Shown in pieces: positions 30,351 to 35,811 of a stretch of 64,000 nt of DNA; positions within the stretch are counted from its first letter, which is position 1; each line of letters opens with the position of its first letter. The position numbers were made by a program, and so were the translations under genes. Origin of the DNA: Chloroherpeton thalassium ATCC 35110 (GTDB lineage Bacteria; Bacteroidota; Chlorobiia; Chlorobiales; Chloroherpetonaceae); assembly GCF_000020525.1 (NCBI RefSeq), contig NC_011026.1:3144001-3208000 (forward strand). Reading direction: 5' to 3'. The notes under the pieces are model-generated. The model saw nothing but the letters and a program-made list of their open reading frames with translations. It did no database searches and was not told the DNA's origin.

Positions 30351-32384
30351 TTAGTGCAATGGCCCTTCGACTTCTTCAAGCGCCATGAGCAATTGGCCTT
30401 CGACGACCATGTCGTTGATTTTGACCGCAATCTCCGTGACCTGCGCATTGAACGGCGCGAGAATGGCATTTTCCATTTTCATGGCTTCGAGGTTTGCAAT
30501 TTCCTCGCCCTTATGGACAATGTCGCCAACCCTCAAGCCGCCACGCTCAGGATTGCCAACCCGCCAAACCGTACCATTAATCGGCGCTGCAATTTCATTT
30601 GCGCCTTTGGCCATTTTGATTTCGGTCTTTTTCGCACGCGGCGTATTGACCTGAAAAACACGCGTTTGGTTATTCACACGCATCACGACATGAATCACGC
30701 CTTCGTGCTCGCCGCCAATCGAGACACGCTCGATGGAATAAGGCACACCGCTATATTCAAACTCTACTTTGTCGCCCGGCGCTTTGAGCCCGCGACGCCA
30801 CACATCCGTTGGCAAAACAAGCGGCGCATCGCCATATTCCTCGCGGAATTTGATGAGCGTTACGCAATCTTTTGGGTGCATCAAATAAAGAACAAACTCT
30901 TCCTCACTCGGAGAACGGCCAATTTGATCGGCGAGCTCTTCACGAAGTTTCGCCAAATCATCCGCCTTGACGGCGTCAAGCGGCGATAGTTCTTTTCGAC
31001 TTTTGAGCTTTTCTTCCCATTCGTCGCCAAAGGTGCTGCGATAAACCCACTCGTCTGGCCAGCCTTGCGGGAGTTTTCCGTAGCCGCCCAAAAGCAAGTT
31101 CTTGAAATCGCTTGGCGCATTGTAGAAAATCGTGAGCAGTTCTTCCTGCTCAGACTCGTTCATCTCCTCAAACTTCTGAGCTTTTTCTTCTACAAACTTC
31201 GCGAGTAAGTCAATCACATGATTGACGCCGGCTTCGCCGCGCTCTTTGGCATACATATTGACGATGCCGCTGCAAGTCACCCAAGTGATTTGCGAACCGG
31301 GCGTGACATCAAAATATTTGACGATTTTGTTAAAAAGCGACATGACCTTCAAAATCGCGGGCATGAGGTGCAAAAAGCCACCTTTTTGCGCCTGCTCAAA
31401 CGAGCTTGGAAACGCGCCACCCGGCATCCGGTGCATGGTCACATTGTAATCAAAGCCTTTAAATGGCGATTCCGCCCATTCATAATGTTGAATCCAATCG
31501 CGCGCTTTGAGAACCGCACTGTCCGCCGACTCGTGATTCAAATGAACTTTAATGCCGGACTCAATCAAATACGCGGCAACGCTGAGCAGCGGCGCTTGGC
31601 CATAGAAACGCGTGAGCGAATCTTCCTCAACATCCAAAATGCTTGCGCCAGCTTCAGCTGCAGCCAAAAGTGCCGGCAACGCCAAACCATCGGTGGCGTG
31701 GCGATGATATTGCAACACCAAATCAGGATACTTCTGCTTGATGCTATCGATTAGGCTTTTCACGCGAGTTGGACTGCCGACGCCAGCCATATCCTTGATG
31801 CAAAGGATAATTTCGTCCGTGCCGCCGCACAAATCCACAATTTCCCCCACGACGCCGAGATAATACGCGTTTGTCGTCCAATCGGCTTGGGTAAATGAAA
31901 TGGCCGGCTCAAACAAACGCCCGCGCTTTAAAACGACCTCAGCCGCTGTGCGCATGTTGCGAATGTCGTTTAAAAACGAGAAACAACGCCAAACATCGAT
32001 ATCCACTTTTGAAATCACATGCTCGATCACATTTTTCGGATACGGGCGATAGCCCCAAAGATTGGTCTCACGAATTAAGGTTTGCAGTAAGACGTTCGGC
32101 ATTTTTTCACGAAGCAATTCAAGCTCCTCGAAAGGCGTTTCCTTGCGATTCATAATTCCCACATGCCAGCGTGCGCCGCCATGACATTCGGAACTAAACA
32201 AGCCCATTTCGTTGTAGAATGGCGCCAATGTGGAAAGATCGTGAATGCGAAGTCTATTTTTATAGTCGGACTGACCCGCGTCGCGCATACCGGTTGATGT
32301 AAAGGAAATCGATCCCAGTGCGCGAACATTTTGCACGATTTCCTTCGGGCTCATGCCCGGTTTTGCAAAAACGAAGTTCTTCAT
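30351..32384 (-). CDS. pycB: Pyruvate carboxylase subunit B (carboxyltransferase plus biotinyl domain)
   Basis: A 677-residue protein of the pyruvate carboxylase/oxaloacetate decarboxylase alpha family. The carboxyltransferase domain (about 20-480) has the metal and substrate residues: R34, D35 and Q38 in GMRDAGQS, the carbamylated lysine in CIKDMAGVG and the HxH pair in YHRHATDG. The usual DTT before the RD is replaced by STG, and the usual histidine of RDAHQS is glycine, so it belongs to a divergent branch. The biotinyl domain at the C terminus has the biotin lysine in EAMKMEN. With PycA it carboxylates pyruvate to oxaloacetate, an anaplerotic step also used in reductive carbon metabolism. 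It starts 6 bases after pycA stops. Confidence 0.9.
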   Translation of the reverse strand: MKNFVFAKPGMSPKEIVQNVRALGSISFTSTGMRDAGQSDYKNRLRIHDLSTLAPFYNEMGLFSSECHGGARWHVGIMNRKETPFEELELLREKMPNVLLQTLIRETNLWGYRPYPKNVIEHVISKVDIDVWRCFSFLNDIRNMRTAAEVVLKRGRLFEPAISFTQADWTTNAYYLGVVGEIVDLCGGTDEIILCIKDMAGVGSPTRVKSLIDSIKQKYPDLVLQYHRHATDGLALPALLAAAEAGASILDVEEDSLTRFYGQAPLLSVAAYLIESGIKVHLNHESADSAVLKARDWIQHYEWAESPFKGFDYNVTMHRMPGGAFPSSFEQAQKGGFLHLMPAILKVMSLFNKIVKYFDVTPGSQITWVTCSGIVNMYAKERGEAGVNHVIDLLAKFVEEKAQKFEEMNESEQEELLTIFYNAPSDFKNLLLGGYGKLPQGWPDEWVYRSTFGDEWEEKLKSRKELSPLDAVKADDLAKLREELADQIGRSPSEEEFVLYLMHPKDCVTLIKFREEYGDAPLVLPTDVWRRGLKAPGDKVEFEYSGVPYSIERVSIGGEHEGVIHVVMRVNNQTRVFQVNTPRAKKTEIKMAKGANEIAAPINGTVWRVGNPERGGLRVGDIVHKGEEIANLEAMKMENAILAPFNAQVTEIAVKINDMVVEGQLLMALEEVEGPLH

Positions 32385-32390
32385 AGTTTT

Positions 32391-33848
32391 TTAAATCCAG
32401 TTCGGTGTTCCAAGAGCAGAAATTTCGGCGACATACTTTGCAATCTTCAACGCCTCGTCTTCATGGTCGACTTCTTTGAAGCTGGCCACGAGTTCAGCCA
32501 TGTGCTGCTCGAGGAACTTTGTTGAAAAATCACCTTCTATGAATTTGGGATGACGAATAATGCTGAGCAACATCGGCGCGAGCGTTTTGACACCCTCAAC
32601 ACGCAGATTGCGGCAAAGCACGCTATCCATTTTCATAATAGCCGTTTCTCTATCCGGGCCTGCGGTCATGAGCAGCATGGCTAAAGAATCATAGTACGGT
32701 GGTATTTCGCCGCCTTCAAAAATACCTTGAGCCACACGAATGCCCGGTCCTGCATTCAAATGCAACCGAGAGACTTTTCCGAATGATGGGCTGAAATTTT
32801 TTGGATCTTCCGCATTGAGACGAACTTCAAGTGCCCAACGGTTTGGGTTAATATCTTCCTGTGCGAAGTGCAGCGTTTCGCCCTGGGCAATGTCGATCAT
32901 GAGGCTCACAATATCTACGCCCGTGATGAGCTCCGTGACACCGTGCTCGACTTGAAGCCGTGTATTAACCTCCAGGAAATAGAACTTTTGCGTATCCGCA
33001 TCAAAGAGAAACTCAACCGTGCCTGCAGAAGTGTAGCCAATGGCTTTCATCAAGCGCACCGCCGTTTGGCAAATATCCTGACGGATTTCCGGCGTGATGC
33101 TTGGCGACGGTGCTTCTTCAATCACCTTCTGGTTGCGGCGTTGAATCGTGCATTCACGTTCGAACAAGTGAATCACATTGCCGTGCGAGTCGGCCACAAT
33201 TTGCACCTCAATGTGACGGCTTTTTTGGATGAACTTTTCAACCAAAACTTCTTCATCGCCAAACGACTTTTTCGCTTCGGATTTTGCTTGCTGAAACGCG
33301 CCTTCCAATTCGCATTCCTGCTGAACGCGCACCATGCCTTTTCCGCCGCCGCCGGCAGTGGCTTTAATCATAATCGGATAGGCGACGTCCTCGTCCTTCA
33401 TCCATTTGCGAATGTCGTCGGGCGATTTCGGATTATTGACGCCCGGAATGACCGGCACGTTTGCCTCGACCGCCGTTTTTTTCGCGCGGATTTTATCGCC
33501 CATTTTATCAATGACTTCCGCGCTCGGGCCAATCCAAATCAAGCCGGCATCTTGGACTTTCTTTGCGAAAACGGCATTTTCGGAAAGAAATCCCCATCCC
33601 GGATGAATGGCATTTGCACCCGTTGAGCGAGCGGCATTGATAATTTTATCTTGATTCAAATACGACTCGCTTGGCGGCGCGTCGCCAATATGAACCGCGC
33701 TATTGGCCATAAAAACATGCGCGGCCAACCTATCGGGTGTGCTATACACAGCCGTTGTCGGTATTTTTCTGTCCTGACAAGTTTGAATGACACGAACCGC
33801 CGGAACACTGCGGTTTGCAACCAAAACTTTTTTAATCTTTCTTTCCAT
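32391..33848 (-). CDS. pycA: Pyruvate carboxylase subunit A (biotin carboxylase)
   Basis: A 485-residue ATP-dependent biotin carboxylase, first gene of the pair. Residues about 1-120 are the N-terminal domain (KKVLVANRSVPAVRVIQTCQ, a variant of the usual NRGEIA motif), the ATP-grasp region follows with a glycine-rich loop (KATAGGGGKGMVRV), the catalytic segment EVNTRLQVEHGVTE and the C-terminal domain RLNAEDP. The NRSVPAVR reading replaces NRGEIAVR and EHGVTE replaces EHPVTE, both mild deviations. It transfers CO2 onto the biotin carried by PycB. Acetyl-CoA carboxylase AccC is the alternative assignment, but adjacency to the carboxyltransferase favours pyruvate carboxylase. Confidence 0.9.
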   Translation of the reverse strand: MERKIKKVLVANRSVPAVRVIQTCQDRKIPTTAVYSTPDRLAAHVFMANSAVHIGDAPPSESYLNQDKIINAARSTGANAIHPGWGFLSENAVFAKKVQDAGLIWIGPSAEVIDKMGDKIRAKKTAVEANVPVIPGVNNPKSPDDIRKWMKDEDVAYPIMIKATAGGGGKGMVRVQQECELEGAFQQAKSEAKKSFGDEEVLVEKFIQKSRHIEVQIVADSHGNVIHLFERECTIQRRNQKVIEEAPSPSITPEIRQDICQTAVRLMKAIGYTSAGTVEFLFDADTQKFYFLEVNTRLQVEHGVTELITGVDIVSLMIDIAQGETLHFAQEDINPNRWALEVRLNAEDPKNFSPSFGKVSRLHLNAGPGIRVAQGIFEGGEIPPYYDSLAMLLMTAGPDRETAIMKMDSVLCRNLRVEGVKTLAPMLLSIIRHPKFIEGDFSTKFLEQHMAELVASFKEVDHEDEALKIAKYVAEISALGTPNWI

Positions 33849-34178: not shown

Positions 34179-34556
34179 ATGCTGACCCAAATAGAAGCTG
34201 ACAGATTAATTGAAATAGAAAAAATTCGTGTTGACGATAAATGCTATTCCTATCCGGCTCTTGGCGGAAAATTATCCATACCGCTTATTTCAACCGACGG
34301 AAAGGAAAATTTCTTTCTTGACATTCATAAGGCAAGAATAAACCTGTTAAGAGGGACGTACCAAACAAGAGCAAGGCAGGTCATTCCTTTAATCAGACTT
34401 GATTTCGGCGGGGCGCCGCATACCAATCCCGATGGGGAGGATATTCCATGTCCTCATTTGCATATCTATCGCGAGGGATTTGGGGATAAATGGGCAATAG
34501 CCGCGCCGCTAAGTATTTTCATGCATTTGGATAATTATATATACAACTTTAGATGA
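34179..34556 (+). CDS. DUF6978-like protein, truncated by a frameshift
   Basis: A 125-residue reading frame. The segment PHTNPDGEDIPCPHLHIYRE followed by GFGDKWAIAAPLSIF resembles the DUF6978 family as I remember it; histidines and aspartates are dense here. The frame stops at 34554 after DNYIYNFR. In the +1 frame the sequence continues DDFMRYCNISQLPFIKEELF and stops at 34612-34614, directly against the ATG of the next gene. Loss of one base in the actttag stretch (34546-34552) would join the two parts into a protein of about 144 residues. The product is therefore a recent frameshift mutant, a sequencing error or a recoded gene. It is the first gene of a two-gene cassette with a DUF1828/DUF1829 protein. 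Function unknown. Confidence 0.75.
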   Translation: MLTQIEADRLIEIEKIRVDDKCYSYPALGGKLSIPLISTDGKENFFLDIHKARINLLRGTYQTRARQVIPLIRLDFGGAPHTNPDGEDIPCPHLHIYREGFGDKWAIAAPLSIFMHLDNYIYNFR

Positions 34557-34614
34557 TTTTATGAGATACTGCAACATCTCTCAGCTACCTTTTATAAAGG
34601 AGGAATTGTTTTAA
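34549..34614 (+). other. Out-of-frame C-terminal part of the DUF6978-like gene
   Basis: Read from 34549 in this frame the codons give LDDFMRYCNISQLPFIKEEL then F and TAA. The TAA (34612-34614) touches the ATG at 34615, which is a common arrangement for coupled genes, and the ribosome binding site of the next gene (aaaggagga, 34597-34605) lies inside this coding tail. This supports it being the original C terminus of the upstream protein. Confidence 0.65.
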
Positions 34615-35382
34615 ATGAAAAACGAAATTGACAATCTCTTGAACCAATATTTCAATTGGCTAAAAGATAGAACGATGCTTCGGGAGATGAACGGCGAGTG
34701 GATGGAAATTACAACGCCTTTTTTGGATAGACATAACGACCGGTTGCAAATCTATGCCAAGAAAATCAACGGCAGCTATTTAATCACCGACGATAGCTAT
34801 ACCATTGAAGATTTAAGCCTCTCTGGCTGCGCGCTGGATAGCAAAAAGCGGCAGGATTTACTGAAAACCGTCTTGAACGGCTTCGGCGTGGCGCTTGAGC
34901 ATAACGCACTGACGGTTAAGGCGTCGGCGCAAAATTTTGCCCGTTCTCAGCACAATTTGATTCAGGCCATGCTTGCCGTAAACGATATGTTTTATTTGGC
35001 AAAACCGTCCGTAGAAAGCCTTTTTTTTGAAGATGTCGCCGATTGGCTCGACTCGCACGACGTGAGATACACGCCGAGAGTCAAATTTACAGGCAAAAGC
35101 GGATACGATTATCTGTTTGACTTCGTCATCCCAAAATCAAAAAAGTGTCCCGAAAGAATCGTTCAAGCAATTAATGCGCCGAATAAAAACAGTACCCAAG
35201 CGTTCATTTTTTCATGGCACGATACAAAGGAAAACCGTGCGCCGAACGCACAGGCGTATGCCGTTTTAAATGATGAAGAAAAAAACTTGGCGCAAACCGC
35301 CATCGACGCGCTGAAAAATTACGATGTGACGCCCGTTTCGTGGCGCGAAAGGGAATCCATCATAGAGCTTTTGGCCAAATAA
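34615..35382 (+). CDS. DUF1828/DUF1829 domain protein of unknown function
   Basis: A 255-residue soluble protein. Residues about 25-120 match DUF1828 ([19 protein letters not shown], then a helical [16 protein letters not shown] segment) and residues about 130-250 match DUF1829 ([44 protein letters not shown]). The conserved GKSG-FDF, SWxDxxxxR and W residues could form an active site; a nuclease-like fold is speculation. The ATG has an excellent ribosome binding site (aaaggagga). It is paired with the DUF6978-like gene, a layout typical of toxin-antitoxin or defence modules, but no activity can be deduced. It is followed 12 bases later by yjbQ. Confidence 0.8.
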
Positions 35383-35394
35383 AACATCACGGAT

Positions 35395-35811
35395 ATGGTT
35401 TTTGGAAAAGGATTTACCGTCGCCACAAAAGGCTTTTCCGACATTTTGGACATCACCGGAAAAGTGCATGAAGTCATTCGCGAATCGGCTCTGCGAAGTG
35501 GGCTTGTGGGCGTTTGCGTTATCGGCTCAACGGCGTCAATCACGACCATCGAGTTCGAGCCGGCGCTCGTAGCGGATTTTAAGGAAAAGCTGGAGGAAAT
35601 CGCCGCCCACGACCGCCCCACTCGCCACGGCGACACATGGGGCGACGACAACGGGTTTTCGCACATTCGGGCCTCGCTCATAGGGCCGGGCATTTGTCTG
35701 CCGTTCCAAGCTGGACGAGTTTTGTTAGGAACTTGGCAGCAAATTGTCGTGATCGATCATGACAACCGACCACGCAACCGAGAAATTTTTGTGCAACTCG
35801 TCGGCGAGTAA
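35395..35811 (+). CDS. yjbQ: YjbQ/UPF0047 family protein
   Basis: A 138-residue member of the UPF0047 (YjbQ) family. The typical pattern is visible: VIGSTASITTIEFEP, then GDTWGDDNGFSHIRASLIGP, the LPFQAGRVLLGTWQQIVVID strand and NRPRNREIFVQL. Family proteins are small metal-binding trimers; thiamine-phosphate synthase activity has been reported for some members when overproduced. Physiological role uncertain. It sits 12 bases after the DUF1828/1829 gene and 112 bases before tilS; co-transcription with the upstream cassette is possible. Confidence 0.9.
   Translation: MVFGKGFTVATKGFSDILDITGKVHEVIRESALRSGLVGVCVIGSTASITTIEFEPALVADFKEKLEEIAAHDRPTRHGDTWGDDNGFSHIRASLIGPGICLPFQAGRVLLGTWQQIVVIDHDNRPRNREIFVQLVGE

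Follow-up and report, generated by a model that had tools for sequence, protein, structure and literature searches.

What does a compact pair of uncharacterised genes do among the housekeeping genes of Chloroherpeton thalassium? The pair lies in a window of 64,000 nucleotides (the whole stretch of DNA analysed here), and an earlier note on this DNA, made from the letters alone, had described it as two coupled open reading frames and suggested a defence or toxin-antitoxin (TA) module. Both reading frames were recovered, with the coordinates listed below, and the DUF names given in that note proved correct, corresponding to PF22398, PF08861 and PF08862 in Pfam. The genes are referred to here as A and B, and the features of the locus are as follows.

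34179..34556, + strand: gene A, DUF6978, 125 aa, putative toxin (Pfam PF22398, PADLOC PDC-M24A, family profile)
34395..34463, + strand: motif RxD...HxNPDG...HxH of A (dense His/Asp segment), possible active site (conservation; apparently common to TumE)
34540..34614, + strand: C-terminus of A, encoded in the other frame (...DDFMRYCNISQLPFIKEELF, up to TAA 34612-34614; second profile segment)
34597..34604, + strand: likely ribosome-binding site of B (AAGGAGGA), within the coding remnant of A (read from the sequence)
34615..35382, + strand: gene B, DUF1828-DUF1829, 255 aa, putative antitoxin, intact (Pfam, PADLOC PDC-M24B, profile, AlphaFold model)
34714..34980, + strand: DUF1828 domain of B, aa 34-122 (Pfam)
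35092..35352, + strand: DUF1829 domain of B, aa 160-246, PD-(D/E)XK-like fold without (D/E)xK (Pfam, AlphaFold, Foldseek, alignment)

Both proteins scored far above the Pfam cut-offs. A matched DUF6978 with an E-value of 1.5e-37 and 129.3 bits, against a Pfam gathering threshold of 29.6. B matched DUF1828 (E=5.7e-30, 103.9 bits) and DUF1829 (E=3.5e-35, 120.8 bits), each above its gathering threshold, and covered positions 1-248 of 249 in the family profile. Both proteins also matched the component models of a PADLOC entry over almost their whole length: A aligned to PDC-M24A over residues 1-122 (4.7e-48), and the adjoining B to PDC-M24B over residues 3-254 (9.1e-110). Gene order in relatives is identical. 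The pair is a further copy of the candidate defence system PDC-M24, which is catalogued without a mechanism; PDC entries in PADLOC are unpublished candidates (PMC11811056). Our literature search returned no paper naming PDC-M24, none characterising DUF6978 and DUF1828-DUF1829 jointly, and no experiment on the pair. An NCBIfam search of the pair gave no match, nor did searches of the PDB by phmmer and with profiles. Each family is present in one copy in the 3,293,456-base single-contig genome.

Unlike PDC-M24, the window copy carries a frameshift in gene A, which the earlier note, although right about the presence of the pair, had overlooked. A profile of 144 positions, built from about 100 homologues, splits A without a gap into positions 4-124 in one frame and 125-143 in the other, the second segment ending at 34611. 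Gene A is therefore frameshifted in the assembly, with the shift located between about 34540 and 34556. Frame 1 stops at TGA 34554-34556, 58 bases 5' of the B ATG at 34615, whereas the other frame encodes the conserved family C-terminus (...DDFMRYCNISQLPFIKEELF) up to TAA 34612-34614, which abuts that ATG. The claim that the stop of gene 1 touches the start of gene 2 consequently holds in the second frame and fails in the first. Relatives of A extend about 20 residues further and end in a motif like DFMRYCNI. Window A does not run the full length of DUF6978 in one frame, as its last ~20 positions lie in another. The part lost includes a C-terminal helix, residues 124-134 in the model of a full-length relative (L049), and F131, which is conserved in 93 of 95 sequences; the upstream motif residues are kept, with the exception of R86, replaced by T. 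A motif that is kept next to a conserved end that is lost suggests that A was recently broken, was mis-sequenced, or tolerates the loss. Having lost the conserved C-terminal helix, the window copy may be disarmed; unless a sequencing error explains the shift or the shift can be bypassed, this copy is probably weakened or dead.

We consider it rather unlikely that the frameshift is non-inactivating, whether as a sequencing error or through a +1 shift near AGA-TGA that would yield the full protein. The upstream motif (R86 aside) and a shifted remnant that is still family-like would suit an event that is recent or harmless, and a TA dinucleotide repeat lies just 5' of the shift site. However, nearby relatives encode A in a single open frame, which argues against a conserved shift signal, and A is also broken beside an intact B at L041, L108, L116 and L136.

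The surroundings of the pair in the window are those of a housekeeping region, with genes for biotin carboxylase, UPF0047 and TilS in its flanks and no defence island beside it. To the left, a biotin carboxylase and carboxyltransferase-like pair spans 30351-33848; in the sister genome G083 it is conserved as a pair (73.7% DNA identity), with a succinyl-CoA synthetase-like gene next in line where the window has the cassette. To the right, the UPF0047 (YjbQ-like) gene at 35395-35811 starts 12 bases past the B stop and may share a transcript with the cassette. Such flanks would favour an ordinary housekeeping or metabolic gene pair, but the distribution of the families makes this extremely improbable. 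DUF1829 occurs patchily, in 23 of 395 genomes of the phylum, and is absent from the one other genome of the family, where the two genes that flank the window cassette lie on different contigs without it. Between phyla (Gemmatimonadota versus Pseudomonadota), identity in B reaches 92%, and the nearest relative of B came from the same phylum in only 24 of 63 cases. Within the window, GC content is 35-40% over A and the gap preceding it, compared to about 48-51% in the genes to the left.

Mobile elements carry the pair as well. Temperate phages infecting Lactobacillus, Latilactobacillus, Staphylococcus and Streptococcus have it, as does a Streptococcus satellite phage, and in these phages it typically lies between the repressor and the integrase (the lysogeny module). 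It was also found in a haloarchaeal virus and on plasmids. Judging from these sequence comparisons, the pair is horizontally mobile among bacteria, archaea and phages, and both its transfer across phyla and its carriage by phages and plasmids argue against a housekeeping role. In the satellite phage, Javan357, the DUF6978-like open reading frame directly 5' of the DUF1828 gene is unannotated (L006:2041-2502). In Halorubrum virus Humcor1 the pair adjoins an Orc1 replication gene (L009:3540-4723).

The association of the two genes was investigated from both sides. One scan of genome contigs with B, seeded with a close three-sequence alignment, yielded 80 loci at 56-63% identity to window B, spanning many bacterial phyla and archaea, and at most of these A was directly upstream on the same strand. 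Approached from A, in about 1,186 genomes, all 32 DUF6978 genes that were intact and away from contig edges, divergent ones included, were followed by a DUF1828-type gene (30 intact, two broken). A single below-cut-off DUF6978 match lacked B (L154) and is probably not a DUF6978. Of 112 pairs, 82 show a 4-base overlap between the A stop and the B start, and the two proteins co-diverge, the distances among A and among B correlating at Mantel r=0.80 (null maximum 0.33). Two small, adjoining, co-translated genes of this kind are what a type II TA module would comprise. The earlier note had named two outcomes that would speak against its reading, namely families unlinked in other genomes and a metabolic enzyme as gene 2. 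Neither occurred: B adjoins 32 of 32 testable intact A genes and matches no metabolic enzyme.

Some variants of the pair were also observed. One Chlorobiales genome (G197; L014 / L127) carries an in-frame fusion of A and B, a deletion having taken out the end of A along with ~60 residues at the start of B. Three other loci (L139, L141 and L145) combine a divergent DUF6978 with a divergent DUF1828-type partner that matches the B profile mainly in its first half; these are a separate subfamily of the module.

Which of the two proteins would be the active component? The earlier note had pointed to GKSG...FDF and SWHDxxxxR patterns in the DUF1829 half of gene 2 that looked invariant and could be catalytic. 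In the AlphaFold model of B (pLDDT 91.6, pTM 0.55), the C-terminal half has a core of a-bbb-a-b topology, as in PD-(D/E)XK enzymes. Foldseek matched B to Card1, Can2, VC1899, Kpn2I and MspJI, the best match being Card1 at E=1.2e-4, and D169, E139/D140, E180, D203 and R208 are conserved. Both the structural matches and the conserved residues would fit B as an active nuclease with A as its regulator or sensor. We regard that arrangement as very unlikely, as the catalytic (D/E)xK is absent from the alignment of 103 B sequences. The residues found most often at position 184 are Q, R, K, H and N, and nearly every sequence has a hydrophobic residue at position 186. In nearly all sequences the strand that would hold the motif reads (Q/R/K)-x-hydrophobic. 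Although its DUF1829 half has the core fold of PD-(D/E)XK nucleases (Card1/Can2 and restriction enzymes), B is for this reason unlikely to be such an enzyme. B also persists alone after the loss of A, which would be unexpected of an unrestrained nuclease, and in DS-6B the DUF1829 domain is on the non-kinase partner. Of the two patterns, G160, F168, D169, D203 and R208 are indeed conserved, but S, W and H are not all so, and a catalytic DUF1829 is not supported. No recognised DNA-binding domain was found in B.

The likelier active component is gene 1, which resembles the toxin TumE. In the A family, R77, D79, H85, N87, H97 and H99 are conserved in 86-94 of 95 sequences. The AlphaFold model of the full-length relative L049 (pLDDT 90.6, pTM 0.86) predicts two principal helices together with a sheet of some seven strands. 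A Foldseek search with this model gave no match in the PDB and one viral protein of unknown function (E=7.7e-4). TumE (DUF6516), a validated translation-targeting toxin, has two helices on a seven-stranded antiparallel sheet and is likewise without a PDB match (PMC10584680). Aligned by hhalign to 19 TumE proteins, DUF6978 scored 28.3 (pairwise E 2.9e-4, probability 40%), which is weak by profile standards, with RxD..H....HxH in register; 300 shuffled TumE alignments reached at most 23.3. A profile comparison of B with TumE gave 1.7%. The predicted fold and the aligned motif support, without proving, a remote kinship of A to TumE.

Formal membership of A in the TumE family (PF20126) was rejected, since one of 95 DUF6978 members matches that family, at 18.1 bits, below the Pfam gathering threshold of 23.4. 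The member in question is the Halorubrum virus Humcor1 protein. An Ntox24 identity was also considered and dropped, as 18 of 95 A proteins matched it weakly (best 0.0077). Compared with the TumE-TumA system (DUF6516, PF20126), the present pair is alike in being a two-gene module with a small alpha+beta protein, which would also resemble TumE in combining RxD...H...HxH with two helices and an antiparallel sheet. It is unlike that system in that B is unrelated to TumA, and the TumE-TumA gene order is usually the reverse of A-B.

Patterns of gene loss were compared for the two genes. At 79 loci with an intact B, A was wholly deleted in eight and frameshifted or truncated in three more, and a deleted A often leaves a short tail before B (L081, L082). 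Where A is intact, B was never absent and was broken in 2 of 32. We had expected loss to strike A far more often than B, and this expectation was rejected by the A-side search: neither deletion (8/79 versus 0/32, p about 0.1) nor deletion and breakage counted together (11/79 versus 2/32) differed significantly. With no significant difference, gene loss agrees in direction with A as toxin and B as antitoxin and gives these roles weak support.

The genomic context of the relatives pointed to type I restriction-modification (RM) systems. Of 125 proteins encoded nearest to the pair across the 80 loci, 17 matched MTase_I and 15 Specificity_I (matches at 1e-5), and neither was among the families listed for 125 control proteins from arbitrary stretches of other genomes (p about 1e-5). 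An HsdR N-terminal domain was present in 21 of 25 large neighbours. By motif, type I RM-like genes flank 34 of 80 loci, with hsdR immediately downstream of the cassette in 19 and hsdS immediately upstream on the same strand in 10; these calls are regex-based and approximate. At L136 the cassette sits between hsdM and hsdS. B was found in an RM operon at 7 of 8 loci in which A is wholly deleted versus 26 of 71 others (p=0.008; the sample is small and the comparison post hoc). Perhaps B has a function alongside the restriction enzymes, or perhaps its deletion impairs the expression of hsdR. The loci with B but no A inside type I RM operons are L069, L080, L081, L082, L083, L093 and L101, and some of them retain the scar of an A tail.

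The frequency of hsd flanks, the nesting of the cassette at L136 and the retention of B in RM operons would all be consistent with a pair that is mainly an accessory of type I RM, guarding or tuning it as PrrC is held by the hsd complex, the standalone copies being derived. This is unlikely in our view: hsd genes are lacking beside more than half of the loci, beside the copies in phages and beside that in the window, the RM calls are approximate, and the retention of B may merely avoid polar effects on hsdR. PrrC and RloC are anticodon nucleases found in type I RM loci. The present pair is like them in that a putative ribonuclease toxin is embedded in hsd operons, and unlike them in having a separate partner and many standalone copies. 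A more specific proposal, which we hold to be decidedly unlikely, concerns the copies in hsd operons. There, inhibition or degradation of the type I complex by a phage would set free a TumE-like RNase toxin and its pseudo-nuclease antitoxin. The pair would then be a second, unrelated guard of the PrrC kind, with B able to serve the complex without A.

The reading that we prefer, and consider somewhat probable, is that A is a ribonuclease-like toxin and B its antitoxin, together giving abortive phage defence. The cassette would be a horizontally mobile, type II-like TA module acting as an abortive-infection device. A would be a small toxin of ribonuclease-like character, distantly related to TumE and with R-x-D / H-x-N / H-x-H as its active site. 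B would be its larger partner, and the catalytically dead, PD-(D/E)XK-like half of B probably serves to bind either nucleic acid or A. The two proteins would be translated in coupled fashion from one message. We infer that A is toxic, that B neutralises it by keeping it inactive, and that phage infection acts as the trigger by disturbing the A-B complex.

The assignment of roles draws on another defence system. DUF1829 is found in DS-6B, the partner of a HipA-like kinase in a validated defence pair (PMC13092281), and in a pair of the PDC-M66 type, removal of the DUF3037 partner of HipA was toxic (PMC12548924). Together with the likeness of A to TumE, these observations suggest A as the toxin and B as the antitoxin. 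The HipA/DUF3037 pair (DS-6, HipAD, PDC-M66) is alike in having DUF1829 in the non-toxic partner and in defending through a toxin-antitoxin pair. It differs in that its toxin is the HipA-like kinase, the counterpart here being DUF6978, and in that B carries DUF1828 rather than DUF3037. In classical type II TA modules the antitoxin gene usually comes first, and the position of A 5' of B runs against that order. Upstream of A, we found neither an operator-like inverted repeat nor promoter-like sites in excess of chance. The earlier suggestion of a defence or TA module gained support from context (the PDC-M24 match, the linkage, the prophage lysogeny modules, the type I RM operons and the patchiness), while its idea of a catalytic DUF1829 did not.

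The window copy itself carries less weight because its toxin gene is frameshifted. For the family, the analysis proposes a concrete mechanism for a catalogued but unexplained candidate, naming the putative toxin gene, its key residues and a reason for its siting in prophages and type I restriction operons. The mechanistic reading of PDC-M24 is better founded than before, and the copy in this genome is probably impaired. Kinship of A with TumE, if real, would unite two families in one toxin superfamily, and DUF1829 could point to other hidden TA pairs if it is a general antitoxin module.
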